From assembly GCF_002949795.1 (NCBI RefSeq), contig NZ_CP026692.1, positions 62,001-126,000 on the forward strand: 64,000 nt of DNA, given 5' to 3'. Positions 3,608-49,548 of the stretch are shown here, piece by piece; within the stretch, counting starts at the first letter, position 1; each line of letters begins with the position of its first letter. This DNA is from Nostoc sp. 'Lobaria pulmonaria (5183) cyanobiont'. Its GTDB lineage: Bacteria > Cyanobacteriota > Cyanobacteriia > Cyanobacteriales > Nostocaceae. Position numbers and translations under genes: made by a program. Below the pieces are notes generated by a model that saw nothing but the letters and a program-made list of their open reading frames with translations, did not search any database and was not told where the DNA came from.

Positions 3608-4131
3608 CTGCCCACTCCCCCTCACTATTGTGTAGTATTGAGTACAACACCTAGAGTTTGCTGTCCTGTGGGCTTATGCATAGTTTGTACTCGGTCGGGT
3701 CAAGTGCCAATATATCACTTCTGGTAAAAGAACAAAACGTTACTTAACTGCACCTGTAAATTTTACCAGTCACAAATCGTCCATCACAAAGACAAAAATG
3801 CGGTAAATCACTGTCTCTACAAAGGGCTGATTATTGTAGAGACGGCGATTCATCGCGTTTTGCCTTAATTGTAAATATGAAAGAAATTGATGAAAAGCCG
3901 AATCAATTCGTAGCTAATTAAGATTTATGAGTTCTAACTGGCACTTTTAAAGAAATCTAACTGTAGACAGATGAAATTTGAAACGCTACTGTTATCAGAA
4001 GCGTATTTTTTGGCGTTAAGACTATCTTTTAATCTACGCGCTAAAGAAAAGGAGTTAATCACTTCAAGATTGCTCCTAATTTTACTGCATCCTGCCCACA
4101 GCCATCCCCAAGACAGAGGTTTAGATCGCTC
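3608..4131. other. Intergenic region with a dispersed palindrome
   Basis: About 520 bases between the divergently transcribed kinase and the GH65 gene; both promoters should be here. Apart from the hairpin repeat at 3813-3862 it holds no recognisable gene. A short frame at 3879-3923 (14 codons) has no support. Confidence 0.4.
3813..3862. repeat. Hairpin plus partial copy of the GTAGAGACGCGAT repeat
   Basis: GTCTCTACAA at 3813-3822 pairs with TTGTAGAGAC at 3834-3843 (10-bp stem). It runs into GGCGATTCATCGCG, a degenerate copy of the GTAGAGACGCGATTCATCGCGTCTC palindrome found inside coding sequence at 35454-35481 and 48845-48873. This is the intergenic relative of those insertions. Confidence 0.6.
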
Positions 4132-34234: not shown

Positions 34235-37200
34235 TTAACGATATAGCCAAACACGCAACAGCGACAGCAATTGTTCAGTATCTACGGGTTTAGTAATGTA
34301 GTCTGATGCACCGGCTTCAATACACTTCTCGCGATCGCCTAGCATGGCTTTAGCAGTCAGTGCAATAATCGGCAAAGACTTAAATCGATCGTTTTGACGG
34401 ATTACGCGTGTTGTTTCGTAACCATCCATTTCTGGCATCATTACGTCCATCAAAACGACATCAATATCTGGTGTATTTTCTAACAGGTTAATCCCCTCTC
34501 TGCCATTTTCAGCATATATAACCTCTATTTGATAACGCTCCAACATACTGGTCAGGGCGAAGATATTCCGCATATCGTCGTCTACAATTAGCGCTTTTTT
34601 GCCAGTGAGTAAGTAGTCTTGTGAATGCAGTTGTTCGAGTATTTGGCGCTTCGGTTCAGGTAAATTTGCTTGGACTCGGTGTAAAAATAATGCTGTTTCA
34701 TCGAGGAGACGTTCGGGCGATCGCACATCTTTAATAATGATTGTCTCGGCAATTCGTCTGAGTTCTGTTTCTTGAGCTTTACTAATTTCTCTACCTGTGT
34801 AGACAATAATTGGTAAAGTTTTGCCGTTAGGTAGAAGCTTTATCTGCTCAATCAGTTCAAACCCGGTCATGTCGGGTAGCCCTAAATCGAGAACCAGGCA
34901 ATCAAAATGCTGGCTGCGAATAGCTTCTAGAGCTGCTGCACCGTTAGCCACTGCTGTGGTCAAAACATCGCTGTTACCAATCAACTCAACAATACTCAGC
35001 CGTTGAGTATCATCATCTTCGACTACCAATAAATTTTTCACCTGGCGCTCAACAAAACCTTTAATTTTGGTCAACGCCTCGGATATTGTTTCGCTGGTTA
35101 AGGGCTTTTGCAGATATGCGATCGCACCTAGTTGTAAACCGCGTTGTCTCCCTTCTTCAACGGTCATGATATGTACGGGAATGTGACGGGTATTTGGGTC
35201 ATGTTTGAGACGATCTAATACCGTCCAACCATCCATTTCTGGCAGCCGGATATCTAGCAAAATGGCTGAAGGTAGGAATTGCTGCGCTAACATCAAACCT
35301 GTACTACCGGTTTGGGCAGCTATCACCTTAAATCCTTGTTGTTGCGCCATATCTAGCAGGATACGCGCAAAATTAACGTCATCTTCGACAATTAGTAACA
35401 CGCGATCGCCTCTTTCAATAGTAGTGCGATCGTCATTTATGAGTGAGGAGTGGGTAGAGACGCGATTAATCGCGTCTGTACTGAGTAGGGAGTGGGGAGT
35501 GAGGAGTGGTTTTGATGTCAACTCAGGACTCAGCGCTCGTAACTCAGCACTGAATTGTGGTAGATAGAACGTAAAGGTACTACCTTCACCTGGTAGACTG
35601 ATTAATTTAATTTCGCCGCCGAAGAGACGGGCGATTTCGCGGCTAATTGATAAGCCCAATCCGGTGCCGCCGTATCTGCGACTGGTAGAGCCATCGGCTT
35701 GCTGGAATGCTTCAAAAATCACTTTCTGTTTTTCGGGGGCAATGCCAATGCCTGTATCGCTGACTGAGAAAGCAATCACAATCTCGGCACTATTTAAGGT
35801 TTGATGGTCGTTGCTCCACCCTAGCTTGGCCACCGCAATCCGTAAGCGTACCTCCCCTTGCTCTGTAAATTTAAAAGCGTTGGAGAGGAGATTTTTCAAC
35901 ACTTGTTGTATGCGTTTGACATCTGTAGAGATGCTATTTGGCAATTCGGGAGTAAATTCAATTGCGAAAGCAAGTCCTTTGCTCTGAGCGATTTGTCGGA
36001 AGGTACGCTCAATTTGTTCGCCCAACTCTGCCAATGGCATTTGGGTCATGTCAATGGACATGGTTCCAGATTCAATTTTAGCGAGATCCAGAATGTCATT
36101 AATCAATGCTAACAAATCAGTACCGGCTGAGTAAATTGTTTGGCTATATTCTACTTGCTTGGCGGTGAGGTTGTGATCGATATTATCTGTCAATAATTTC
36201 GCCAAAATCAACAAGCTGTTTAGCGGTGTCCGCAGTTCATGGGACATGTTGGCGAGAAATTCTGATTTGTATTTTGAAGAGAGGGCGAGTTGTTCAGCCT
36301 TGTCTTCTAAAGAGACTCTTGCTTGTTCAATTTCCCGATTTTTGCGCTCAACTTCTTTCTTCTGCATTGCCAACAACTCTGCCTTTTCTTCCAATTCGGC
36401 GTTGGTTTGTTGCAATTCCTCTTGCTGTCCTTTGAGTAAATCCTCAGAGGTTTTGAGTGATTGGGCTTGTTGTTCTAAGCGCTTGTTGGTTTCGCGGAGT
36501 TCGCTTTGCTGAGTTTGGAGTTCTTCAGCCAAAGATTGCGACTGCTTGAGTAATTCTTCAGTTCGCATCGATGCGGCGATCGTGTTGAGGACGATCGCAA
36601 TACTTTCGGTAAGCTGGTCGAAGAATGTCAGATGAATTTCGCTAAAGCGGCGGAAGGATGCTAATTCAATCACGGCTGTCACCTGTCCTTCAAAAAGTAC
36701 AGGTAATACCACAGCATTCAAAGGCGTGGCTTCTCCTAAACCAGAGGAAATTCTGACATAATCACTTGGCACTTCCGTCAGCAGTATCCGCTCTTTTTCT
36801 AAAGCGCATTGTCCCACCAAACCTTCACCCAAGTGGAAGCGGTTAGCTAGATGTCTGCGTTCGCGGTAAGCGTAGCTACTAATTAATTTCAAATAGGGTG
36901 TATGTTCCCCATACTCCATGAGGAAGAATACGCCGTGTTGCGCTCCTACCAAGGGTGCTAGTTCGGAGAGAATTAGTTTAGATACAGTTTCCAAGTCTCG
37001 CTGCCCTTGCAGCATTCGGGTAAACTTGGCTAAGTTAGTTTTCAACCAGTCTTGTTCGGTGTTTTTCTGTGTTGTCTCTCGCAGATTGGCAATCATCTGG
37101 TTGATGTTGTCTTTGAGGATGGCAACTTCCCCTAGTGCCTCGACGGCAATTGAACGAGTTAAATCACCCTTAGTTACAGCTGTAGCAACTTCGGCGAGCG

Positions 37201-40200
37201 ATCGCAACTGAGTTGTCAGTGTAGCAGCGAGTTCGTTGACGTTATCTGTCAAATCTTTCCAAGTTCCAGCCGCCCCAGGTACTCTCGCTTGTCCCCCTAA
37301 TTTCCCTTCAATTCCCACTTCCCGCGCCACTGTGGTTACTTGATTGGCAAAGGTTGCGAGGGTATCAATCATCTCGTTGATTGTCTCTGCCAAGGTTTCA
37401 ATTTCTCCCTTGGCATCTAACATCAGTTTCCGTTTCAAGTCACCGTTAGCAACTGCCGTTACAACTCTGGCGATACCGCGCACTTGTGCCGTTAGGTTCC
37501 CCGCCATCGAGTTCACGTTATCTGTCAAATCTTTCCAAGTCCCCGCGACACCTTGAACTTGCGCTTGTCCGCCCAACTTCCCTTCAGTTCCCACTTCCCG
37601 CGCCACCCGCGTTACTTCACTGGCAAAGGAACTAAGTTGATCTACCATCGTGTTGGTGGTGTTCTTCAAGTCTAAAATTTCGCCTCTGGCATCGACGGTA
37701 ATTTTCTTGGAAAGGTCGCCATTAGCTACTGCTTTCGTAACTTCAGCGATGTTGCGAACTTGTCCGGTGAGGTTCCCTGCCATCGAGTTCACGTTGTCGG
37801 TCAAATCTTTCCAAGTTCCAGCCACTCCTCTGACGTAAGCTTGCACGCCTAATTTACCTTCCGTTCCCACCTCACGGGCAACCCTGGTAACTTCCGATGC
37901 AAAAGAATTCAGCTGATCCACCATTGTATTAATGGTGTTTTTAAGTTCCTGAATTTCACCTTTGACATCGACGGTGATTTTTTTAGATAAGTCGCCGTTA
38001 GCTACGGCGGTGGTAACTTCGGCAATATTTCGTACTTGCGCCGTCAAACTTCCCGCCATGAAGTTTACGCTGTCGGTTAAATCTTTCCAAGTGCCGGCTA
38101 CACCTTTAACTTCTGCTTGTACGCCCAGTTTCCCTTCAGTTCCCACCTCACGCGCAACTCTTGTAACTTCCGATGCAAAGGAATTGAGTTGATCCACCAT
38201 CGTGTTGACGGTGTTTTTCAACTCTAAAATTTCACCTTTGACATCAACGGAGATTTTTTTAGATAAGTCGCCATTAGCTACGGCGGTGGTGACGGCGGCA
38301 ATGTTTCGCACCTGTGCCGTTAAACTTCCCGCCATGAAGTTTACGCTGTCAGTTAAATCTTTCCAAGTGCCAGCCACACCGCGCACATCTGCTTGTACAC
38401 CTAATTTACCCTCACTTCCCACCTCACGGGCAACCCGCGTTACTTCACTTGCAAAGGAATTAAGTTGATCCACCATTATATTGATGGTATTCTTGAGTTC
38501 GAGAATTTCGCCTTTGACAGCAACAGTAATTTTCTTAGATAAGTCACCATTGGCGATCGCAGTTGCAACTTCGGCAATGTTTCGCACTTGGTCAGTGAGG
38601 TTCCCCGCCATTGAATTTACGTTGTCGGTCAAGTCTTTCCAAGTACCTGCTACTCCTCTAACTTCTGCTTGCACACCCAATTTGCCTTCCGTTCCTACCT
38701 CCCGTGCAACCCGCGTCACTTCCGATGCAAAGGAACTGAGTTGATCCACCATTGTGTTGATGGTGTTTTTCAACTCCAAAATTTCGCCTTTGACATCAAC
38801 GGTGATTTTCTTAGATAGGTCGCCATTTGCCACAGCAGTAGTCACTTCCGCAATATTTCGCACCTGAGCCGTCAAGCTTCCAGCCATGAAATTCACGCTG
38901 TCGGTCAAGTCTTTCCAAGTGCCTGCCACACCGCGCACTTCTGCTTGTACGCCCAATTTACCTTCACTTCCCACCTCACGCGCAACCCTTGTTACTTCTG
39001 ATGCAAAGGAATTGAGTTGATCCACCATTGTGTTGATGGTATTTTTGAGTTCTAAAATTTCACCTCTGACATCGACAGTGATTTTCTTAGATAAATCGCC
39101 TGTTGCAACCGCCGTAGTCACTTCGGCAATGTTTCGCACCTGTGCCGTTAAACTTCCCGCCATGAAGTTCACGCTGTCGGTTAAATCTTTCCAAGTGCCA
39201 GCCACACCACGCACATCTGCTTGCACGCCCAGTTTACCTTCACTGCCCACCTCACGCGCAACCCGCGTCACTTCACTTGCAAAAGAACTGAGTTGATCCA
39301 CCATGATATTGATGGTATTCTTGAGTTCAAGAATTTCACCTCTGACATCGACGGTAATTTTCTTAGATAAATCGCCATTGGCGATCGCAGTCGCAACTTC
39401 GGCAATATTTCGCACCTGTCCGGTGAGATTACCCGCCATTAAATTAACGTTATCAGTTAAATCTTTCCAAGTACCTGCTACTCCCCGGACTTCTGCTTGA
39501 ACGCCCAACTTCCCTTCAGTTCCGACCTCACGCGCAACTCTTGTTACTTCCGATGCAAAGGAATTAAGCTGATCCACCATTGTGTTGATGGTATTCTTCA
39601 ACTCCAGAATTTCGCCTTTCACATCCACAGTGATTTTCTTGGATAAGTCGCCATTTGCCACCGCCGTTGTCACTTCCGCAATATTCCGCACTTGTGCCGT
39701 CAAGCTTCCCGCCATGAAATTCACACTATCGGTCAGGTCTTTCCACGTCCCCGCTACCCCGCGAACTTCTGCTTGACCGCCCAATTTTCCTTCTGCACCC
39801 ACCTCACGCGCAACTCTTGTGACTTCCGATGCAAAAGAATTCAGTTGATCCACCATGATGTTGACGGTGTTTTTCAACTCCAAAATTTCACCTTTGACAT
39901 CCACAGTGATTTTCTTAGAAAGGTCGCCATTCGCTACTGCCGTTGTTACTTCCGCAATATTACGGACTTGAGCAGTCAAATTTCCTGCCATCAAGTTAAC
40001 GTTGTCAGTTAAATCCTTCCAAGTTCCGGCGACTCCTTTAACTTCGGCTTGCACGCCCAACTTCCCTTCAGTTCCCACTTCACGCGCAACTCGCGTTACT
40101 TCACTCGCAAAAGAATTCAGTTGATCCACCATCGTGTTGACGGTGTTTTTAAGTTCGAGAATTTCGCCTTTAACATTAACAGTGATTTTTTTGGATAAGT

Positions 40201-40852
40201 CACCATTTGCGATCGCAGTTGCAACTTCGGCAATATTTCGCACCTGTCCGGTAAGATTACCCGCCATCAAGTTAACGTTATCAGTCAAATCTTTCCAAGT
40301 GCCAGCCACACCTTGCACTTCGGCTTGGACACCTAATTTACCCTCGGTTCCCACTTCACGGGCAACCCTTGTAACTTCTGATGCAAAGGAACCGAGCCGA
40401 TCTACCATCGTGTTGACGATATTAGCAGTTTGGAGAAACTCACCTTGCAGGGGTCTGCCATCAATTTCTGTAGCGATCGTTTGGGATAAGTCACCATTGG
40501 CAACTGACCGAATCACCCGCGTAGTTTCAGCTGTTGGTTGAACTAAATCTGTAATTAGAGTATTGACAGAAGTAACACAATCTGACCAAGAACCCCGAAC
40601 ATCTCCGAGAGAGGCGCGATCGGCAATTTTGCCTTCTTTGCCAACAACGTTACCAATCCGTTGTAGTTCGGCCGCCATCCGCTCATTTTGATCGATAATA
40701 TTATTGAGCGTATCAGCTATTTTTCCTGCTACACCAGTATGGTCTATGGGCATCCGAGCAGAGAAGTCACCCTGTTTAACAGCATTCAGCGTTCTTAACA
40801 GCTGATTTAAATCGAGATTGTCGCTGTCTCTAGTTAACTGTTCGGTTGCCAT
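34235..40852 (-). CDS. Giant multi-HAMP hybrid histidine kinase (HAMP array-GAF-HisKA-HATPase-REC3)
   Basis: 2205 residues with no membrane segment, so cytoplasmic. Residues 1-1260 are a HAMP array: two divergent units (GDFSARM, GDLSQTI), ten near-identical 92-residue units ([20 protein letters not shown]), and two more divergent units. A GAF domain follows (about 1281-1430), then a long coiled coil, [10 protein letters not shown] (His near 1538), a HATPase ([15 protein letters not shown]), and three receivers (about 1816-1931, 1938-2054, 2085-2205; [35 protein letters not shown]). It resembles group III kinases (fungal Nik1/Os-1) that sense osmotic stress. The ten units repeat every 276 bp in DNA. 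A palindromic repeat (35454-35481) adds DAINRVST before the first receiver. AAGGATAAGG precedes the start. Confidence 0.92.
35454..35481. repeat. In-frame palindromic repeat inside the multi-HAMP kinase gene
   Basis: GTAGAGACGCGATTAATCGC followed by GTCTGTAC, with the perfect core AGACGCGATTAATCGCGTCT. On the minus strand it reads TDAINRVST. It is embedded in a linker that also holds GAGTGAGGAGTGG-type tandem repeats on either side, between the ATPase and first receiver domains. Confidence 0.85.
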
Positions 40853-41253
40853 AGCCTTATCCTTAATCTTGAATCTTGAGGAATTTTTTGTATTTTTTGC
40901 ACCCCGTACCTAGTGAGATAACTTTTAGGTAATGCGTATCACAATACAGAGCAGGGAATAGAAAGTGGATCAAACTAATTTTTATGGGTGCGAGTGTAAG
41001 CAGTTGACAAAGACTGCTAACTAAATGGTATTGCCATCGATGTATCTGGCATCCCACTTAGCCAATGATAGCGAGTTGGCGTCTGTTATGCAGCATCAAT
41101 TGTCGGCGATGCCTAACTTGGGCAAGTAAGCGATCGCACAGTAGAACAGACGATGACAATTAACATTACATTTTATGATTTTTGGAATTTGAGGAAAGCA
41201 GCAAATCAATAAATCCTAACTGATAACAGAGGTTTGCTAAAGTCAAAAGTATC
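40853..41253. other. Intergenic region upstream of the multi-HAMP kinase
   Basis: About 400 bases with one HIP1-like GCGATCGC near 41130. No supported gene. The kinase promoter should be here. Confidence 0.35.
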
Positions 41254-41263
41254 CGGCAACTCC

Positions 41264-41397
41264 TAATACGGTTCGGATAAGATCCCCCCGCCTGCGGCGA
41301 CCCCCTTTTTAAGGGGGTAAAGATTAGAAAAAGCCCCCCTTTTTAAGGGGGGTTGGGGGGATCTTCGAGAGAAAAACAGGTTAACCGAACCGTATTG
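41264..41397. mobile_element. MITE-like element with AATACGGTTCGG termini and 10-bp flanking repeat
   Basis: About 134 bp. AATACGGTTCGG at 41265-41276 is matched by CCGAACCGTATT at 41385-41396. Inside, GATCCCCCC and GGGGGGATC and two CCCCCTTTTTAAGGGGG-type hairpins extend the symmetry. The direct repeat CGGCAACTCC flanks it (41254-41263 and 41398-41407), as expected of a target duplication. No coding capacity. Confidence 0.8.
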
Positions 41398-41419
41398 CGG
41401 CAACTCCAAGGATTGGCAA

Positions 41420-41623
41420 ATGGTTAGAGAGTACTCACCCCAGAGACATCTGCCTCCGCTTGAAAGTGGCGATCGCCTAACTCGCCCTGAATTTGAACGG
41501 CGTTATGCGGCTGCACCTCATATCAAGAAAGCAGAACTGATTGAAGGAATCGTTTACATCGCATCTCCTGTAAGACATGAGCAACATGGCAAACCCCACA
41601 GTCGGGTGATAACGCGTAAATAA
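41420..41623 (+). pseudogene. Uma2-family endonuclease remnant (N-terminal fragment)
   Basis: 67 codons matching the start of cyanobacterial Uma2/DUF820 proteins: [36 protein letters not shown] and KPHSRVIT. Intact members are about 190-230 residues and carry the PD-(D/E)XK core further on; here the frame ends straight after RVITRK, and downstream DNA shows heptamer repeats. The family is abundant in cyanobacteria, with unclear targets. The fragment starts 12 bases after the MITE-like element duplication. Confidence 0.75.
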
Positions 41624-41661
41624 ACAGACCATTGAAAAGCCCTAAAGAGCTTATTCCATAA

Positions 41662-41704
41662 TACTTTTGACTTTTGACTTTTGACTTTTGACTTTTGACT
41701 TCCG
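41662..41704. repeat. Heptameric short tandem repeat (TTTTGAC)
   Basis: Five consecutive TTTTGAC units followed by TTCCGCCTTGCGG. It sits between the Uma2 remnant and the NACHT gene stop. Confidence 0.9.
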
Positions 41705-41714
41705 CCTTGCGGTA

Positions 41715-44375
41715 CTAGCTAGGTTCATTCCAAGCCCTAATCGCTTCAATCGCAATACCAGCAGGAGCAAATAAAATCTTTACAGTTTCAATACCTGCTG
41801 CTGTCACTGCTCTTTGCAAACGTACTTTGAGCATTGGATTATTTTTGATAACTTGCTCAATCGCTTGCCTATTTTTAAGTACTGGATGACTCTCAACAGC
41901 TTGAGCAACAATAGGTTGAGCATCGATTACAGTCGGTTTATCCTGCTCCATTTTCTCAAGCAACTGCTCAAGCACAGTTTCTAATTTAGCAATATCTTTT
42001 GTAGACGCGTAATTGTTTTGAGTGCCAATGTTATCACCTTGGATATTTCCTGTAACACTGCCTACGATAGTGCCAAAGGTAGCGCCTGTGAAATCATTTT
42101 TAGGAGTTTCTGACATATTTTTGAGTGTTTGATTAAGTGTGTTTAGAGTATTGAGTAAATTATTGGACGGATTCTCTTCCGAAAGTGAAGAAGTCACAAT
42201 AGTATCGTTGTAGTAACCACGCTTCTCTTGGATTTGAGAAATTTTAGTAAGTACACCATCTATTAATTCTTTTGTACATGTTGAAGTCATTAATAAATTT
42301 TTCGACAAGAGAGTAAGTAACTCAGGTTTAATAATTTGCTTTAAAGCATTTACCGAACTACTAATTACTTCATCATCTTCATCTTCTAAAGTTTGACATA
42401 AAGTAGGTATTGCTGCTTCATTGCCTATTAAACCTAATATTGACACAGCACAGTTACGAATATCAGGGGATTGATCTACTAAAGCTTCAAATAGTAAATA
42501 ATTTGCCCGTTCAATACCAACTCGTTCTATTACACTGTCATCCACTCCAAACCAAAAGCAGTCTTCTAACTCATATCCAAATGGTCTTCCTTTATAAACA
42601 AGAGAAGAAATTGCAGAGTGCCTAATGCTTTCTTCAGATGCAGCGAATGACTTAGACCAACCAGAATTGTTGGAATTAATTTGCGTGTAACCTTGAAACT
42701 TATTTATTTTTGTATTGCAAATAATCCCATCTTCTGGGATTTGTTCGGTAGAGGTAATACTAACTTCAATATCACCAGCAAGTTTTTGTAAATTTAGAAC
42801 AAAGATGGGATTATGACTACTTTCACCTTTTGCATTAAGAAGAATATAACGGCAGTAGATTTCATGTCCATTTGTCATTAACACTTGGCGTAAGTGTAAT
42901 CTTGCTATGTCAGAGTGTGTTATGCATAAAAGCCGAATTTTGAGTTCTTGGTCAACTTCTAACTGAGCAACTAAACCAACCGTTTGAGCTTGATACTCTC
43001 GCTTTACCTCTCCTGCCAACCTTGCGCCTAACCTTAAATCCACATCTAAGGCTAACTTCACCACTCGCACTGCTTGCCTTTCATCATTCACCAACCCCAA
43101 CATCAATGCCACGGGTTCTGTCCACTTCAAATAATTCAGATAATCCCGTTTTAACTTCTCATCACTAACATTATCAAGGTGTTGGAGTAGAAATTCTGCG
43201 GCGTAGTATTCCTGAATCAACTGGTGACGAAATTCAATCTGGTCGTCTGTTCGCAATTGAATTAAGTGATACTTGAGCAAATCTTCTAGCCATTCTCTTG
43301 CACAATTCTCACTAAAAGCTACTTTGTTCTGTAAAAATGCCGCTAAAACATTCCTAGCTTGCTGTTTAGAAATAGTTAATCGCAACTCAGTCAAATTATC
43401 GCCTTGCATCATTACAAATGCTAGATGCTGCAATAAATCAGCCTCCCACTCAGGTAACCCTTCAGCAATTGGTACATTTTCCTTGAGTTTGTGATACTCT
43501 CCAGAGAACCAACGAAACAGCTCACCTAAACTAGTAGGAATTTGTTTAGCATCATTAAATACTTCACACAGCATCCACAATAACAGCGGCGTTTCCGCCA
43601 ATTCTCGCAAGCGTCCAGCCAACTGTCGCAGCATTTCATCACCCACCTCTGAATAGGCGCGGACAAAATGCTGCATCTGCGCTTCTGTGAGAGGTTGCAT
43701 TTCCAGTTTTTTTTCAATACCTAAATCACCCCCCACCCCCAAATACCGCGTAGTAAAAATCATCGGCGTTCGGCGGTATTTCTGCCTAAATCCGTCTAAA
43801 TCTCGCCTAGCTTCATCGTTGGATAATTCATTCAAACCGTCTACAATTAACAAAAATCGCCCTGTAAACAGTAGATTTTCAATCTCTATCCTGTTGAGGT
43901 TTAAATTATAGCGAGTCAAAAAGTCCCGAATTAAATCCAGCACCGAAGTTTTGTAGCGCCTTAACTCCACTAGCACGGGAATCCTTGTCAGCTTTTCCGC
44001 TTCTCCTCTGCTCCTCTGCTCCCATGCTCCCTTGCACTTTTCGGCTTCTTCCCACAACAAACGTTCTAAAGCTGTAGATTTGCCTGAACCCGGTCTTCCT
44101 ACTAGCAATACATGGACGGGTGCATACTTCAGTAACCCTTCGAGGATATTCAACCGTTCAATTTTTTCTCTGTCTGGTGCTTCACCTTCTCGTTGCTGTG
44201 GTACTGTTTGCACCATCAAACTCAAATCTAAGCGTCTGCGCGATTTTTTGGGTTCAAGTCTTTGACGGTCTATGGCATCAGTTGGCGTGTATAAATCTTG
44301 CCAATCTCTATATGTGTCATCCTCGCTCAGAGATTCTAGATACGTTTGAAAATCTATGCTGTGGTCTGCAACCAT
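41715..44375 (-). CDS. NACHT-domain STAND ATPase with HEAT-like repeats
   Basis: 886 residues from the ATG at 44375 (a TTG at 44384 is the alternative). A 60-residue N-terminal region precedes the NACHT ATPase: P loop [15 protein letters not shown] (near 90-100), Walker [12 protein letters not shown] (near 172), MIFTTRY (sensor) and [16 protein letters not shown]. The middle has HEAT-like helices ([20 protein letters not shown]). The C-terminus has a Gly-rich stretch [19 protein letters not shown] ending GTQNNY (near 760), then helices. NACHT ATPases act as signal-triggered switches, and several bacterial ones defend against phage; no effector domain is evident here, so that role is inferred. 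An 8-bp tandem repeat (44003-44036) adds [10 protein letters not shown] just after the P loop. Confidence 0.85.
44003..44036. repeat. 8-bp tandem repeat inside the NACHT gene
   Basis: CTCCTCTG CTCCTCTG CTCCCATG CTCCCTTG, read on the minus strand as part of [12 protein letters not shown]. Closely related to the 8-bp repeat in the double-kinase gene at 58771-58806. Confidence 0.75.
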
Positions 44376-44569
44376 AGTAGTCAATTGACCGAGGACTTTT
44401 AAGCGCTCTTTTATATACTACACAATAAAACGCTCAATCCTTTTTATGATGCCCGTCCTACAAACGAAGTAATTGGCGGGCTGCGCTCAACTTGAAGAAT
44501 ATCTGATAAGCATTTCAAAATTTTTTGATGTACTACCTAGATTTTCGATCCTCCCTAACCCCCCTTGCC

Positions 44570-44870
44570 AAGGCTACAGTGTATACACAAGTCTGAAATA
44601 GTTTACTCACCTGGTTTTTCGCGTCAGTTTTACCCCACCCTAACCCTCCCCTTGGAAAGGCTACGGTGTACACACAAGTTATCGAATCACTACAAGTTCT
44701 CAAATTACCCCACCCTAACCCTCCCCTTGGAAAGGGGAGGGAACTAGATTTTCTTGTTTCCCCCCTTTCTAAGGGGGGATTAAGGGGGGTAATTCAACTT
44801 GTGTATACACACACCGTAGCCTTAAAAAGGGGGGAACTAGTGCCCCCTTTTTAAGGGGGTTGGGGGATCT
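44570..44870. repeat. Composite intergenic repeat zone
   Basis: Three copies of AAGGCTACGGTGTRYACACA plus AGT: direct at 44570-44592 and 44657-44680, inverted at 44796-44823. Each abuts a C/G-rich repeat (CCACCCTAACCCTCCCCTTG, or CCCCTTTTTAAGGGGG). The arrangement looks like a small element inserted repeatedly at the same point of a longer repeat. No gene was recognised in the 555 bases between the NACHT start and the next gene. Confidence 0.65.
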
Positions 44871-44930
44871 CAAACCAGGGTAAATTGAGTGTTTGAGCTT
44901 AAGTTGACACTAAACCCTATTGGATTTTAC

Positions 44931-45371
44931 TCAACTGACGATCGCACCCGATACCCCATTCATAGATCCATTTGCAGAAGAAACCTCAACAGAATTGGCT
45001 GCTAAAGAATTGGTGGGTTTGGAATTGCCTAGTACGCTTCGCTTCTTCTTGGTATTACCTCGTCTAGCACCACCCGCCATCTCGTATTCTGGGCTGATTT
45101 TACCATAACGGCTGCCAACTCCTAGTAACATTTGTTCTGACATCGCTATTACAACCTTTTCGGCGTTATTCACGTCATCTGTAAGTTTGTCAATGGTAGA
45201 TAATGCAGTGTTGTAAGCAGCAAGCTTAGACCGGAGATCGTTAATTGTCACCGTGTAAGCTTGTATAGTCAATCCTTGTCCAAAGTCAAGTTCTACACTG
45301 ATAGATTGTAAACTTTCAATCCGGCGATCGGCTCGTTCTAAAACGGTGGAATTTCTTTTACGACGTGCCAT
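44931..45371 (-). CDS. Small basic protein of unknown function
   Basis: 146 residues. The N-terminus is basic (MARRKRNSTVLERADRRIES). It is followed by a region of mixed beta/helix (SISVELDFGQGLTIQAYTVT), a coiled-coil-like segment (LRSKLAAYNTALSTIDKLTD) and a low-complexity basic tail (RRGNTKKKRS, then Ser/Asn-rich). Codon use and the clean start (AGAG upstream) support it. I do not recognise a named family, though the central segment looks like a conserved cyanobacterial protein. No operon partner. Confidence 0.65.
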   Translation of the reverse strand: MARRKRNSTVLERADRRIESLQSISVELDFGQGLTIQAYTVTINDLRSKLAAYNTALSTIDKLTDDVNNAEKVVIAMSEQMLLGVGSRYGKISPEYEMAGGARRGNTKKKRSVLGNSKPTNSLAANSVEVSSANGSMNGVSGAIVS

Positions 45372-45514
45372 AATGCATCTCTGCTACTAAGTTAGTAGTA
45401 CTGTTTTATACCACTATTTTTTAATTGTCATGGGAAAATATAGCAAATCAGTTGCGATCGCATCTCAAAAAATTTAGTTAATTTCACTTAGACTATATTT
45501 TATTCCAGGTAATA

Positions 45515-45745
45515 AATAGATTCATAAGTTTGTTACAACAATTGCTGCAATGATTTAAGCCTTTCTTATACATGGAAGAACATTTGTTGCAAAGTATTAA
45601 ACATTTGCAGCAACGACTTATACATTTGCAAGAAAAACTTAAGCCTTTCTTATACATGGAAAAGCATTTGTTGCAAAGTATTAAGCGTTTGCAGCAATGA
45701 CTTATACATTTACAAGAAAAACTTAAGCCTTTCTTATACATGAAG
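45515..45745. repeat. 21-bp heptad-type minisatellite with 84-bp higher-order unit
   Basis: AAGCCTTTCTTATACATGGA begins a unit at 45557, again at 45641 (84 bp on), and partly at 45725. Each 84-bp unit is four 21-bp subunits of the form xAxCATTTGYWGCAAAGxxTT. On the plus strand it reads as heptads (HLLQSIK, HLQQRLI, HLQEKLK, PFLYMEE) interrupted by TGA codons. On the minus strand, 45493-45741 is an open Cys-rich frame without recognisable homology. It could be a decayed coiled-coil gene or a pure minisatellite. Confidence 0.8.
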
Positions 45746-45762
45746 TAATCTTAGCTGCAAAG

Positions 45763-45864
45763 GTTTAAATTTTTATAGTCTCAAGCGTAAGAGCCATCGC
45801 TTTATTACTAAACGTTTAAATTTTCACAGTCTCAAGCGTAAGAGCGATCGCTTTATTACTAAAC
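45763..45864. repeat. 51-bp tandem duplication reaching into the cobN stop
   Basis: Two copies (45763-45813, 45814-45864) of GTTTAAATTTTYAYAGTCTC followed by AAGCGTAAGAG and a CGCTTTATTACTAAAC tail. The second copy includes the cobN stop codon (45859-45861), so the duplication appears to have copied the very end of the gene outward. Confidence 0.85.
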
Positions 45865-48800
45865 CGTCACTCCTTCCAACTCTTCATCTGTCAACTCATA
45901 CAACTGGCGCAACTTATCTAACTTCTTATCATCAGCTTCCCAGAAACCCCGCCCATGCGCCTCCAACATTCTGCCTAAAATATTGCGAAAAGCTTCAGGA
46001 TTTGCCTTACGTAATTTCTCCGCCATCTCTGCATCTAACGCATAAGTCTCTGCGGCTTGATCGTATACCCAATCATCGGTAAAATCGGCAGTACCACCCC
46101 AACCAATCAACGCCGTCATCCGTTGGGAAATTTCAAAAGCACCACCAGAACCTTGATTTGCCATCGCTTGCGCCCATTTGGGATTTACCAACTTGGTGCG
46201 GTACTCCATTCGCAGTAAATCATCTAAATTGCGCGGTGTAGTATCCTTCGAGAAACTTTCCACAAAACTGGTTGTAACCTTCTTCCCGCCTTGTTTTTCT
46301 GCCGCCCTTTTCAAACCGCCGGTATTGGCGTAATATTCTTGAATATCAGTTAAACCATATTCTACCGAATCGATTTCTTGAACAATGCGATCGCTAGTTT
46401 TTAACAAAGTATTCAACACTTCCGGTCTAGCTTGACCTTTATCTTCTCTGCCATAGCTAAACACATTGCGACTTTGCCAAGTATTCCCCAACTCCTCACC
46501 AGATTCCCAATTCCCATCAACCACTCTATCATTCACCAAAGAACCAAAATCACCCGCCGGATTAGAAAACAATCTCGCCGATGCATTTTCCACACCTTGG
46601 GCTTTCAAAGCTAAGGCGTGTCTTCTAATAAAATTTTGATCTTCCGGTTCCTCAGCATCAGCCGCCCGTTGAAATAAATCATCCAACAATTCGATAATAT
46701 TCACAAAACTATCCCGGAAAATCCCAGACAAATTACCCAACACATCAATGCGGGGATGTCCAACCTCCGCCAACGGCTTCAACTCATAACGAACAACTCT
46801 ACCAGTTCCTTCCTTAACAGGTTCAGCCCCCACCAACTCCAACAGAATCCCCAAAGATTCACCCTTAGTTTTAATCGCATCCAATCCCCATAACATTACC
46901 GCCACCGTTTCGGGATATTTACCATATTCATCCAAATGCTGGACAATAATTTTTTGAGCAATTTCTCGTCCCCGTTCATACGCCGCAGGTGAAGGCATCC
47001 GATAGGGATCTAAAGCATGAATATTCCTCCCAGTCGGCAAAACACCAGCCCCATCCCGCAACAAATCCCCACCAGGCGCAGGCGGAATATATTCCCCATT
47101 CAACCCCCTTAACAAATTCGTTAACTCATCCGTAGATTGCATCAACAAATCCCTTATTACTCTTCCTTCTTCTTCTCTTTCTTCTTTGCGTTCTTTGCGC
47201 CTTTGCGGTTCGTTTACTTCTTCCTCCCCCCCAAAATAAGCCTCCAAATACGACCCCAACTCCTCCTCATTCGGCTTTTCCCCCAAAGTATGCAACCCAG
47301 AAGAAAACAACCGATTTTCTAAAACTTGCAAATATTCATACAACCCCACCAAATAATCATCAAAAGCACGAACACTAAACATCCGCACATTCTCCGGCGT
47401 AAACGCAATACCCAACCGTTTAGCATCCTCAAACGGACAATCAGCATCCAACCCAGAGTCCACAATTTTTTTACAAATTCCTTCCTTTAAGACATAATTC
47501 TTTTGTGGATCTTCACGATACTCTGAAATCAAATCTCGCAACGCCACCAATTCCTTATACAAACCTGCCCGCCCATAAGGAGGCACATTATGAGAAATCA
47601 ACACACCATAACCGCGACGTTTTGCCAACATCGACTCAGAGGGATTATTCGCCGCATATATATATAGATTAGGCAAATTTCCTAACAGAATATCCGACCA
47701 AGAATAACCCGTATTCCCCAACGGAGAACCAGGCAACCATTCCACCGTCCCATGCATTCCAAAGTGAACTAAAGCATCAGCTTGAAACTCATTTTGCAAC
47801 CATTTATAATAAGCAGCATATTGCGGATGGGGCGTTAAATCTCGTTCAAACATTAAGCGCATGGGATCACCTTGTATCCCCAAAGGTGGTTGTACACCTA
47901 TCCACACATTGCCTAATTGCACACCGCCAATTTGGAATTCATCGCCATAAGTTTTAATTCCAGTTCCCGTGAGAGATTTCCATTGTTTTTCGATGCGGGA
48001 GGTTTGCAGATATCCCAGCCATTTTTCTAGAGTGTGGGCGTTAACAGACGTAGGGATATTTTTTGTATCATCAATTTCATCCGCTTCTTTCACCCAGCGA
48101 ATCAATTCTTCCCCATCTTCTGGTAAATCCCCCACGGTGTAACCTTGTTCTTTGAGTGCATGGAGAAACTTCAGCAAACTACGCGGCACATTTAATAATG
48201 CAGCTGTCCCCGCAGCACCATAACCGGGAGGAAACCCATATAAAATGATCGCAATCTTGCGTTCTGATGCAGGTTTTTGCCGCAAAGCCACCCAAGTTTT
48301 TACCCTACCAATTAATCGCTCCACCCGTTCGGGAACCAGATAAATATTTTCACCTACCAAACCACCAAGGGGAACAGTATCAATAGCCCCATCCAATTCG
48401 GGTAAGGCGTATAACACCACACTTTGCAATCCGCCGATACCTTGGCGCGTCCATGAGTGAATATCTTGAATTAATAGTGGTGCGGCAACAATATAAGGTA
48501 CATTCTTGGCAGTGAGGATGCGCTTTGCTACTTCCACCTGACGCCCTGCTTCCATTGAACCAGCCGGGCCACCCACCAAAGGAAAGCCAATTGTGGAAAC
48601 GATCGCATCCACTTTTACTGCTTCATTAGATAGTGAGGGAGTCTCTATATTACCTAGTTGTCGTTGTTGAATTTCATAGTTGGTTGTCATTAAATCTCGT
48701 ACCGCCACGTGTCCTTCTACGCCGTTGATGAAAATGGGCAAAGGAGTTAACCCAGCTTTTTCAAAACTGCGAATTAGTTGGGGAATGTAGGGTTGTTTGG

Positions 48801-49548
48801 TGATGACGTGTTTTCGGTAGAGTAAAATCCCGATAATCGGTTTTGTAGAGACGCGATTCATCGCGTCTCCACAATAGGTTTTATACCATTCCAAATATTC
48901 GCGGGGTGATTCAAAAAACCCTTGATAGTCGGGGTGGAGTAATCCGATGTTAGGGGTTTCGACTAGCGGGGGAATATCGCCGACTTTTAAACCTAAGTAT
49001 TTTTCTGCCAGTGTCCAGAATAATGAAGCGACGTTTTCTGAACCCCCAGCATTCCAGTAACCATAGATAATTAACCAGTTGCGTAAGTCTTGGACTTTTT
49101 GCACTGGTATATATTTCAGTAGTTTGGGGCCAATTTTTAAGAAGCTGATGTAACCAGCAAGTTTGTCTTCTTCGCGTCCATTGCTAAATTTGTCGAGGAT
49201 GAATTTAACTGGTTTGGGCATTCCTTTGGGTTTGTCGCCAATGGCAAAGTCACCCAGCTTGGTTAAACTCATCAATTCCAAGGCTGACTCAAAGACTAGA
49301 CGGATGGGAATTTGGGAAATGCGATCGCGCAACCACACAACCTGGTCATAATCAAATAGTAGGCTACCAAAAAACACATCAGCGCCATCAAGTGCTGTTT
49401 CTACCTCAGTGCGTTTGTTGGTAAGATCGCGATCGCTAAATACTCGAATATCCAACTCAGGACAGCGAGAGTTAGCCAAAAAGGCTGCTTTTCTGTACAA
49501 GTCAGCGTTGAATGATTCAAACCCAGCAATCAAGACGATGCGTTTCAT
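45859..49548 (-). CDS. cobN: Cobaltochelatase subunit CobN (ChlH-like)
   Basis: 1229 residues, close in length to the cyanobacterial CobN-type paralogue and about 100 shorter than ChlH. The N-terminus is the ChlH-type lead domain (KRIVLIAGFESFNADLYRKA). Core blocks include YWNAGGSENVASLF, GFPLVGGPAGSMEAGRQ, YGFPPGYGAAGTAALLNVPR, HFGMHGTVEWLPG and MLWGLDAIKTKGES. It would insert Co into hydrogenobyrinate a,c-diamide, using ATPase partners such as ChlI/ChlD. A second Mg-chelatase H is the alternative. Two dispersed repeats lie inside the frame: one adds GDAMNRVSTK (48845-48873) and one adds EPQRRKERKEER (47181-47214). No chelatase partner is adjacent. Confidence 0.82.
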   Translation of the reverse strand: MKRIVLIAGFESFNADLYRKAAFLANSRCPELDIRVFSDRDLTNKRTEVETALDGADVFFGSLLFDYDQVVWLRDRISQIPIRLVFESALELMSLTKLGDFAIGDKPKGMPKPVKFILDKFSNGREEDKLAGYISFLKIGPKLLKYIPVQKVQDLRNWLIIYGYWNAGGSENVASLFWTLAEKYLGLKVGDIPPLVETPNIGLLHPDYQGFFESPREYLEWYKTYCGDAMNRVSTKPIIGILLYRKHVITKQPYIPQLIRSFEKAGLTPLPIFINGVEGHVAVRDLMTTNYEIQQRQLGNIETPSLSNEAVKVDAIVSTIGFPLVGGPAGSMEAGRQVEVAKRILTAKNVPYIVAAPLLIQDIHSWTRQGIGGLQSVVLYALPELDGAIDTVPLGGLVGENIYLVPERVERLIGRVKTWVALRQKPASERKIAIILYGFPPGYGAAGTAALLNVPRSLLKFLHALKEQGYTVGDLPEDGEELIRWVKEADEIDDTKNIPTSVNAHTLEKWLGYLQTSRIEKQWKSLTGTGIKTYGDEFQIGGVQLGNVWIGVQPPLGIQGDPMRLMFERDLTPHPQYAAYYKWLQNEFQADALVHFGMHGTVEWLPGSPLGNTGYSWSDILLGNLPNLYIYAANNPSESMLAKRRGYGVLISHNVPPYGRAGLYKELVALRDLISEYREDPQKNYVLKEGICKKIVDSGLDADCPFEDAKRLGIAFTPENVRMFSVRAFDDYLVGLYEYLQVLENRLFSSGLHTLGEKPNEEELGSYLEAYFGGEEEVNEPQRRKERKEEREEEGRVIRDLLMQSTDELTNLLRGLNGEYIPPAPGGDLLRDGAGVLPTGRNIHALDPYRMPSPAAYERGREIAQKIIVQHLDEYGKYPETVAVMLWGLDAIKTKGESLGILLELVGAEPVKEGTGRVVRYELKPLAEVGHPRIDVLGNLSGIFRDSFVNIIELLDDLFQRAADAEEPEDQNFIRRHALALKAQGVENASARLFSNPAGDFGSLVNDRVVDGNWESGEELGNTWQSRNVFSYGREDKGQARPEVLNTLLKTSDRIVQEIDSVEYGLTDIQEYYANTGGLKRAAEKQGGKKVTTSFVESFSKDTTPRNLDDLLRMEYRTKLVNPKWAQAMANQGSGGAFEISQRMTALIGWGGTADFTDDWVYDQAAETYALDAEMAEKLRKANPEAFRNILGRMLEAHGRGFWEADDKKLDKLRQLYELTDEELEGVTV
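47181..47214. repeat. In-frame dispersed repeat in cobN (CTTTGCGTTCTTTGCGCC)
   Basis: Read on the minus strand as NEPQRRKERKEER, a highly charged loop near residue 780, next to an acidic GGEEEV stretch. The DNA belongs to the CTTTGCG family seen at 31391-31449. Confidence 0.7.
48845..48873. repeat. In-frame palindromic repeat in cobN
   Basis: GTAGAGACGCGATTCATCGC followed by GTCTCCACA, nearly identical to 35454-35481. The minus-strand reading is CGDAMNRVSTK near residue 230, in the same strand and frame relation as in the multi-HAMP kinase. Confidence 0.85.

Follow-up and report, generated by a model that had tools for sequence, protein, structure and literature searches.

A GTAG-tagged repeat read in frame in a histidine kinase and a ChlH-like chelatase of Nostoc, and the different palindromes held by the same chelatase loop in related cyanobacteria

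In a stretch of 64,000 nucleotides from Nostoc sp. 'Lobaria pulmonaria (5183) cyanobiont' (assembly GCF_002949795.1, contig NZ_CP026692.1, positions 62,001 to 126,000; the whole of this stretch is called the window, and positions in it are counted from its first letter), two near-identical palindromes, assigned below to the repetitive extragenic palindromic (REP) elements, are read in frame within two long open reading frames (ORFs) that encode unrelated proteins. How did one short inverted sequence come to supply a peptide to both a histidine kinase and a chelatase, and what keeps it there? The features that raise the question are the following.

35454-35481, forward strand: REP copy with a GTAG foot, a AGACGCGAT/ATCGCGTCT stem and a TA loop, in the kinase ORF, reading GTAGAGACGCGATTAATCGCGTCTGTAC.
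48845-48873, forward strand: REP copy with a TTCA centre, in the ChlH/BchH-like ORF, at the place called site 1, reading GTAGAGACGCGATTCATCGCGTCTCCAC over 48845-48872.
3836-3862, forward strand: decayed intergenic relative with one extra base and a broken arm.
34235-40852, reverse strand: multi-HAMP GAF hybrid histidine kinase of 2205 amino acids.
45859-49548, reverse strand: ChlH/BchH-like chelatase large subunit of 1229 amino acids.
35482-35510, strand unspecified: heptamer-type repeat DNA (GAGTAGG/GAGTGGG) adjoining the kinase copy.

A pattern search of the window returned the two copies (four strand matches) and nothing in 100 dinucleotide shuffles, and translation of the minus strand gave TDAINRVST at the kinase copy and GDAMNRVST at the chelatase copy, in an identical phase; a sequence-only reading of this DNA had proposed both the pair of palindromes and their common frame, and both were confirmed. 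The decayed relative that it had placed at 3836-3862 was found as well, lying between ORFs, although the ungapped pattern search of the window missed it. The name cobN that it gave to the ORF at 45859-49548 was wrong: the ORF scored 1618 bits against the BchH model TIGR02025 (cut-off 829) and fell under the cut-off for each of the six CobN models and both remaining Mg-chelatase H models in the list. The CobN ORF of the genome (TIGR02257, 1569 bits, above the cut-off) lies apart from the window, at locus L113 (G000:C1:2398900-2403900), where two neighbouring REP copies are read as TDAIHRVSPLSTDAMNRVST. Both window ORFs are conserved, as had been supposed; however, the kinase copy is in a linker and not in a conserved domain. 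The kinase ORF holds HAMP, GAF, HisKA, HATPase and receiver domains, and its copy sits 3' of the HATPase domain in a linker with heptamer repeats, DNA like that at 35482-35510 also immediately preceding the copy. The chelatase copy was placed, by sequence alignment to PDB 4zhj, in a loop 3' of EWY and 5' of PIIGILLYRKH. An AlphaFold model of a 480-amino-acid chelatase fragment was poor (mean predicted local distance difference test score, pLDDT, of 43) and was set aside.

The palindrome belongs to a family that is dispersed through the genome (G000; 7.34 Mb in 5 contigs). Allowing up to two mismatches, the genome-wide search gave 93 forward and 97 reverse matches and none for a reversed-pattern control; the palindrome usually matches on both strands, and the copy number is about 90-100. 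Among 73 distinct copies surveyed, taken from 57 fetched regions and the window, the foot was GTAG in 48, GGAG in 11 and another sequence in 14, and the centre was TTAA in 39, TTCA in 18 and TTTA in 8. The geometry, a 9-bp stem with a 2-base loop, fits the range of GTAG REPs (5-13 bp stem, short loop), and the assignment of the palindrome to the GTAG-tagged REP elements is well supported. Motifs of the heptamer type (GGAGT/ACTCC) lay within 25 nt of 25 of the 73 copies; for random positions the figure was 100 of 1403. Across a sample of the phylum, 35 of 386 genomes had at least one match at one mismatch or fewer.

With 'inside a gene' defined as more than 90 nt within an ORF of at least 150 amino acids, 17 of the 73 copies fell inside 13 recognisable genes: those for PutA, SMC (2 copies), GH65, MoeA, a REP-associated tyrosine transposase (RAYT), GH38, a nonribosomal peptide synthetase, a polyketide synthase, CobN (2), MutL and UbiA (3), and the two window genes. 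Such ORFs make up 71% of the DNA examined, and genic insertions therefore seem to be mostly lost. The PutA copy lies between two enzyme domains and the MutL copy between domains; the three copies in UbiA precede the Pfam domain, in a part of the ORF for which the real start codon is uncertain. A looser count gave 24 copies within any ORF of at least 120 amino acids, the seven excluded copies being at ORF edges or in short, doubtful ORFs. The 17 genic copies were read as DAINRVST in 13 cases and as QTRLIASL in 4, and never in the third frame, in which the foot gives TAG.

One genic copy identifies a candidate for the enzyme that moves the element.

L085 (G000:C1:6900539-6901168): candidate RAYT of 209 amino acids with the motifs NHIH, WQ and YIINNP.
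L085 2501-2524 and 3273-3296: element copies flanking the RAYT.
L085 2786-2809: element copy in frame inside the RAYT, between the HuH and Y motifs, reading EEDAMNRVST.

The gene was found through the element lying inside it; it scores 31 bits against PF01797 (cut-off 23), and the genome search with that model did not list it. Just downstream, at about 2360-2500 of the same locus, stands a tandem array of half REPs (CGCGTCTTCTTGTATTTGATTCAT). Relatives of this RAYT were present in 29 of 50 genomes, a figure that gives no estimate of prevalence because the 50 were partly chosen for holding the element. At 20 of 30 RAYT loci (19 genes, since L176 and L202 are one gene) a palindrome lay in the middle of the ORF, and at 15 of these 20 the same stem recurred in a flank or at the ORF edge; the stems themselves vary from one RAYT to another. 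G076 combines 273 forward matches with a close RAYT. The RAYT-linked stem GAGACGTTCCATGGAACGTCTC was detected in 6 of 18 genomes, including a genome of another family that has 2 copies, and was absent from G000.

Orthologues of the chelatase were then compared around the loop in 50 of 59 genomes and at 80 named loci (the best 80 of 324 relatives); 4 of the 80 were unparsed at first, and under a looser rule 2 of 130 loci (L142 and L270) were dropped. Outgroup loops are short or unlike the element, and those of relatives are empty or different. On this comparison of sequences the palindrome is an insertion, as the orthologues without the element confirm. The peptide was not seen in orthologues lacking the repeat: among 105 unique chelatase ORFs, the sole stemless peptide is that of L231 (Dendronalium), where a second inverted repeat nested in frame splits the REP at site 1 (CRDATPVATTGETPATRWLINRVST). 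Loops hold the window repeat, tandem growth of half elements, dimers, other GTAG palindromes or unrelated repeats. Two types of unrelated repeat are themselves dispersed, the GGGCGGGC type with 42-93 matches in four genomes that have it in the loop and the KGG type with 46-79 matches in three, and each is found, too, in genomes whose chelatase loop lacks it. In G049, from another family, the same palindrome occupies the chelatase loop in the other frame (VETRYIASLP). In some species, palindromes are also present at four more places in the chelatase gene. The kinase linker carries the repeat in 11 of 30 genomes, in both frames and amid heptamer arrays.

Several other observations concern the chelatase gene and its surroundings. 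A 15-bp half element repeated in tandem and in frame yields NRVSP nine times in L126 and L238, and D/NRVSP six times in L233. Six Okeania ORFs (L256-L258, L265, L268 and L272) have other in-frame palindromes elsewhere in the gene (RGEWHSP or SPLSKGG-like). The gene of L123 (G002) has a split frame, with parts of 301 and 1016 amino acids meeting near query position 82, and its loop reads through. In Calothrix HK-06 (L280) a REP (VETRFIAS) lies further along, perhaps in the same region as the first of the two window features below.

47158-47217, reverse strand: low-complexity, insert-like stretch in the chelatase ORF (the VNEPQRRKERKEEREEEGRV region, reading NEPQRRKERKEEREEEGR).
45493-45741, reverse strand: small ORF built of repeated MYKKGLSFSCKCISHCCK-like units.

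Site 1 is occupied by different stems in different relatives. GACG-N10-CGTC was found there in 47 of the 105 unique ORFs, as 14 different 18-mers, and the codon phase was identical in 46 of 48. Mapped on a tree built from the flanking codons, the loop type shows 27 or more changes, where shuffled labels give a mean of 50; this count uses a stricter typing rule, the K label of L057 having at first been too loose. Westiellopsis carries CGCCATGGCG (CCATGG) and Fischerella muscicola CGATTAATCG (TTAA centre) in genes with a flanking core that is 96.0% identical, and the stem also differs between Calothrix NIES-4105 and Dulcicalothrix (core 89.2%) and between Atlanticothrix and Nostoc MG11 (85.7%). 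In such relatives the inner stem differs and the boundaries and frame are unchanged; of 19 ORFs listed, 13 have 39 nt between the stem and the next strand, and each ORF of the Calothrix pair has 33 nt. Westiellopsis has 27 copies of the CCATGG family in its genome, F. muscicola 2.

Repeated insertion, conversion between copies and selection for a hairpin could each explain site 1, and refreshing by REP movement or conversion is put a little ahead of hairpin selection. A broader idea, which we offer tentatively and at somewhat less than even odds, is that some loops of host genes serve as reusable docking sites, and that the chelatase loop of Nostocales has been reloaded with REPs of different families (GATNNATC, TGCATG, CCATGG, ACATGT, TACATG and others), nearly always in one codon phase, and occasionally with unrelated repeats; RAYTs would remove hairpins and re-insert them precisely there, or copies would convert one another, or the gene would have recruited the hairpin.

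Our reading of the whole, with a probability of roughly 0.8, is that the REP was copied around the genome by a RAYT (TnpA_REP) of the subclass 2.4 type and survives in gene stretches that tolerate it. On the model of related enzymes, for which single-strand transposition has been published, the RAYT would nick the DNA at the foot and insert the hairpin at another place. Insertions would mostly be lost from genes and would persist where the element falls in tolerant sequence and is read in either of the two stop-free frames (DAINRVST or QTRLIASL), as may have happened in the window in the kinase linker and in the loop of the ChlH-like chelatase, where insertion or conversion would since have refreshed the site.

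Several points weigh against this reading. Transposition was unobserved, and it is from association that we infer a probable role of the 209-amino-acid RAYT in mobilising the window copies. The protein scores 49 bits against the NCBIfam model NF047646 (REP_Tyr_transpos), below the cut-off of 80. Among the 20 loci whose palindrome is internal, five have no matching flank copy (L177, L178, L184, L191 and L192), and 10 of the 30 RAYT loci have no intact palindrome in mid-ORF: it lies only outside the ORF in L179, L180, L182, L190 and L196, only at the ORF end in L183 and L195, and at the frame-ending stop in L187, and L198 and L201 have none. Copy number does not strictly follow the presence of a RAYT: no RAYT relative was detected in G008 (132 forward matches) or G065 (64), and the RAYT detected in G304 carries a stem unlike the TTCCATGGAA stem that is abundant there. 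A second foot, CTAC, follows only 4 of the 73 G000 copies (CCAC follows 2 and GTAC 23), and many palindromes of other genomes have the full double foot (GT[AG]G at the 5' end, C[TC]AC at the 3' end). Neither a target site nor a target duplication could be made out. The RAYT-like genes L034 and L035 (PF01797) had no copy within 1.5 kb and were rejected as mobilisers; the loci of three IS200-type genes (L031-L033) had no element copy either. Lastly, four genomes (G445, G446, G448 and G450) have a TGCATG-type stem at site 1 from a family of 3-5 copies, two of which are in the chelatase gene itself in at least three of the four, and the GATNNATC family is commoner in them; the site thus need not mirror the current pool of elements, which weakens re-insertion from that pool. 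In G447 the TGCATG family has 66 copies.

Elhai et al. 2008 reportedly described small dispersed repeats (SDRs) of Nostoc, and Ogata et al. 2002 are said to have described palindromic elements of Rickettsia. In passages of PMC4390886, the SDRs are very small dispersed repeats in cyanobacteria, one of which reportedly inserts at an exact position within another repeat; the likeness to our element is one of description alone. REPs in genes, RAYTs, and RAYTs with their own REP are already in print. According to passages of Quentin et al. 2018 (PMC6006769), TnpA_REP subclass 2.4 is abundant in Cyanobacteria and has NH[IFV]H, WQ and YIxNNP motifs, and its gene is flanked by REPs and holds a REP in frame between the HuH and Y motifs. 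The 209-amino-acid RAYT has all three motifs, the flanking REPs and the in-frame REP at that place, so its kind is already known and a RAYT with its own REP is not new; however, those passages name neither this RAYT/REP pair nor an exchange of REPs at a fixed site in a host gene. The families GTAG-12, -15 and -16, in passages of Di Nocera et al. 2013 (PMC3733652), resemble our element in their GTAG end and short stem, with 2-3 bp loops common, and occur in filamentous cyanobacteria, inside genes and in association with RAYTs; GTAG-15 differs in having loops of 9-15 bp where ours has 2 bases, the families being compared by description only. The Rickettsia elements, as passages of the same paper (PMC3733652) present them, are likewise palindromes in frame in unrelated proteins, but have a CGTC tag, no dedicated transposase and another sequence; the feet of our 73 copies are mostly GTAG. 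The sequence-only reading's suggestion of something like the Rickettsia coding palindromes and yet distinct from them was thus right in kind, with a different sequence and tag. What is new is that, depending on the species, one chelatase loop carries REPs of different families or unrelated repeats, and that the inner stems of relatives differ there while position and phase stay the same. The literature searched, with partial coverage, contained no account of REPs being exchanged at a single coding site; in a text search, the DNA words matched only papers unrelated by title and the peptide had no match.

The alternative that survives best, though we consider it rather unlikely, is that the palindrome in the chelatase of Nostocales has been recruited as a selected DNA or mRNA hairpin, for example as a translation pause. 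Any strong hairpin would then serve, which would account for different REPs and other inverted repeats in the same loop. The stem is nearly free of silent change: in ORFs chosen by protein pattern, the element's D, A, R and V codons deviate in 1 of 144 cells, against 130 of 797 and 251 of 1174 in the flanks, and on the tree the four stem columns take 1 step in all, against a mean of 5.5 for each of 82 D/A/R/V flank columns. In 100,000 random draws of four columns, no draw was as low. These figures are to be read with the shared ancestry of the rows, a choice of intact peptides that favours younger copies and a possibly different codon bias of the insert in mind; within Nostoc alone, a third of flank third positions are likewise unchanged, and in the tree built from ORFs chosen for an exact stem the zero stem steps are true by construction and are no evidence. 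A fuzzy search of the 105 ORFs found 35 exact stems and 1 with one mismatch (L227), together the 36 type-A ORFs, and 5 at 2 or 4 mismatches that are symmetric variants; it found no class of half-decayed stems. The two centre bases change many times on the tree while the stem stays, and 45 of the 47 GACG-N10-CGTC elements are fully paired outside the centre.

Folding gives this idea further support. As RNA, the window chelatase stretch folds at -28.1 kcal/mol (z -6.4), and strong folds are also given by the replacement repeats G and K (z below -2.5 in 7 of 8). The same REP decays in the kinase linker, with 4 perfect copies out of 11; in the chelatase within the genus, the count is 23 of 23 (Fisher p 6e-5, with non-independent rows and differing taxa); simple homogenisation across the genome therefore does not explain the conservation of the stem. 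However, 43 of 45 unique orthologues with none of the listed repeats have no unusual fold, which rules out a generally required hairpin, and the kinase and chelatase sets come from different taxa with related rows that are not independent.

Plain tolerance, in which each gene received one old and harmless insertion with no continuing process at the DNA level, is less likely still. It agrees with the open frames in which genic copies stand, with their position in linkers or loops wherever one could be assigned, with their scarcity relative to ORF coverage and with the decay of copies in the kinase linker; however, it leaves unexplained the near-absence of silent change in the chelatase stem and the symmetric stem differences between relatives.

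It had also been suggested that the palindrome is a mobile element selected to be compatible with protein, as has been proposed for the Rickettsia elements. The first half stands, in that the element is inserted, dispersed, probably mobile and tolerated in frame; special selection for a stop-free state is unsupported, and we hold it to be improbable. The palindrome has four of six frames open with a TTAA centre and three of six with TTCA or TTTA, and among random palindromes four open frames are more frequent than any other number (47%, or 61% when the foot is TGTAG); copies within ORFs are, moreover, few. Some constraint on readability may nevertheless exist, because RAYT genes hold their own REP in frame (also in passages of PMC6006769) and an unreadable REP would be costly there. 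Finally, we give almost no credence to an ancestral protein peptide with a palindrome in it by chance: many Nostoc orthologues do share the peptide at one position, but outgroup loops lack it, 12 other genes of the genome contain the element, and other palindromes stand at the same place in relatives.

To our knowledge, RAYT-driven movement of REPs has been inferred from patterns in genomes and never seen in the act. Pairs of relatives with 89 to 96% identity between their chelatase genes around the site nevertheless hold different stems there, a natural record of REP exchange, and the chelatase site offers a defined place for testing excision, re-insertion or conversion. Core proteins can gain peptides from short mobile hairpins in this way, and stretches of the DAINRVST type in cyanobacterial proteins may be derived from such inserts.

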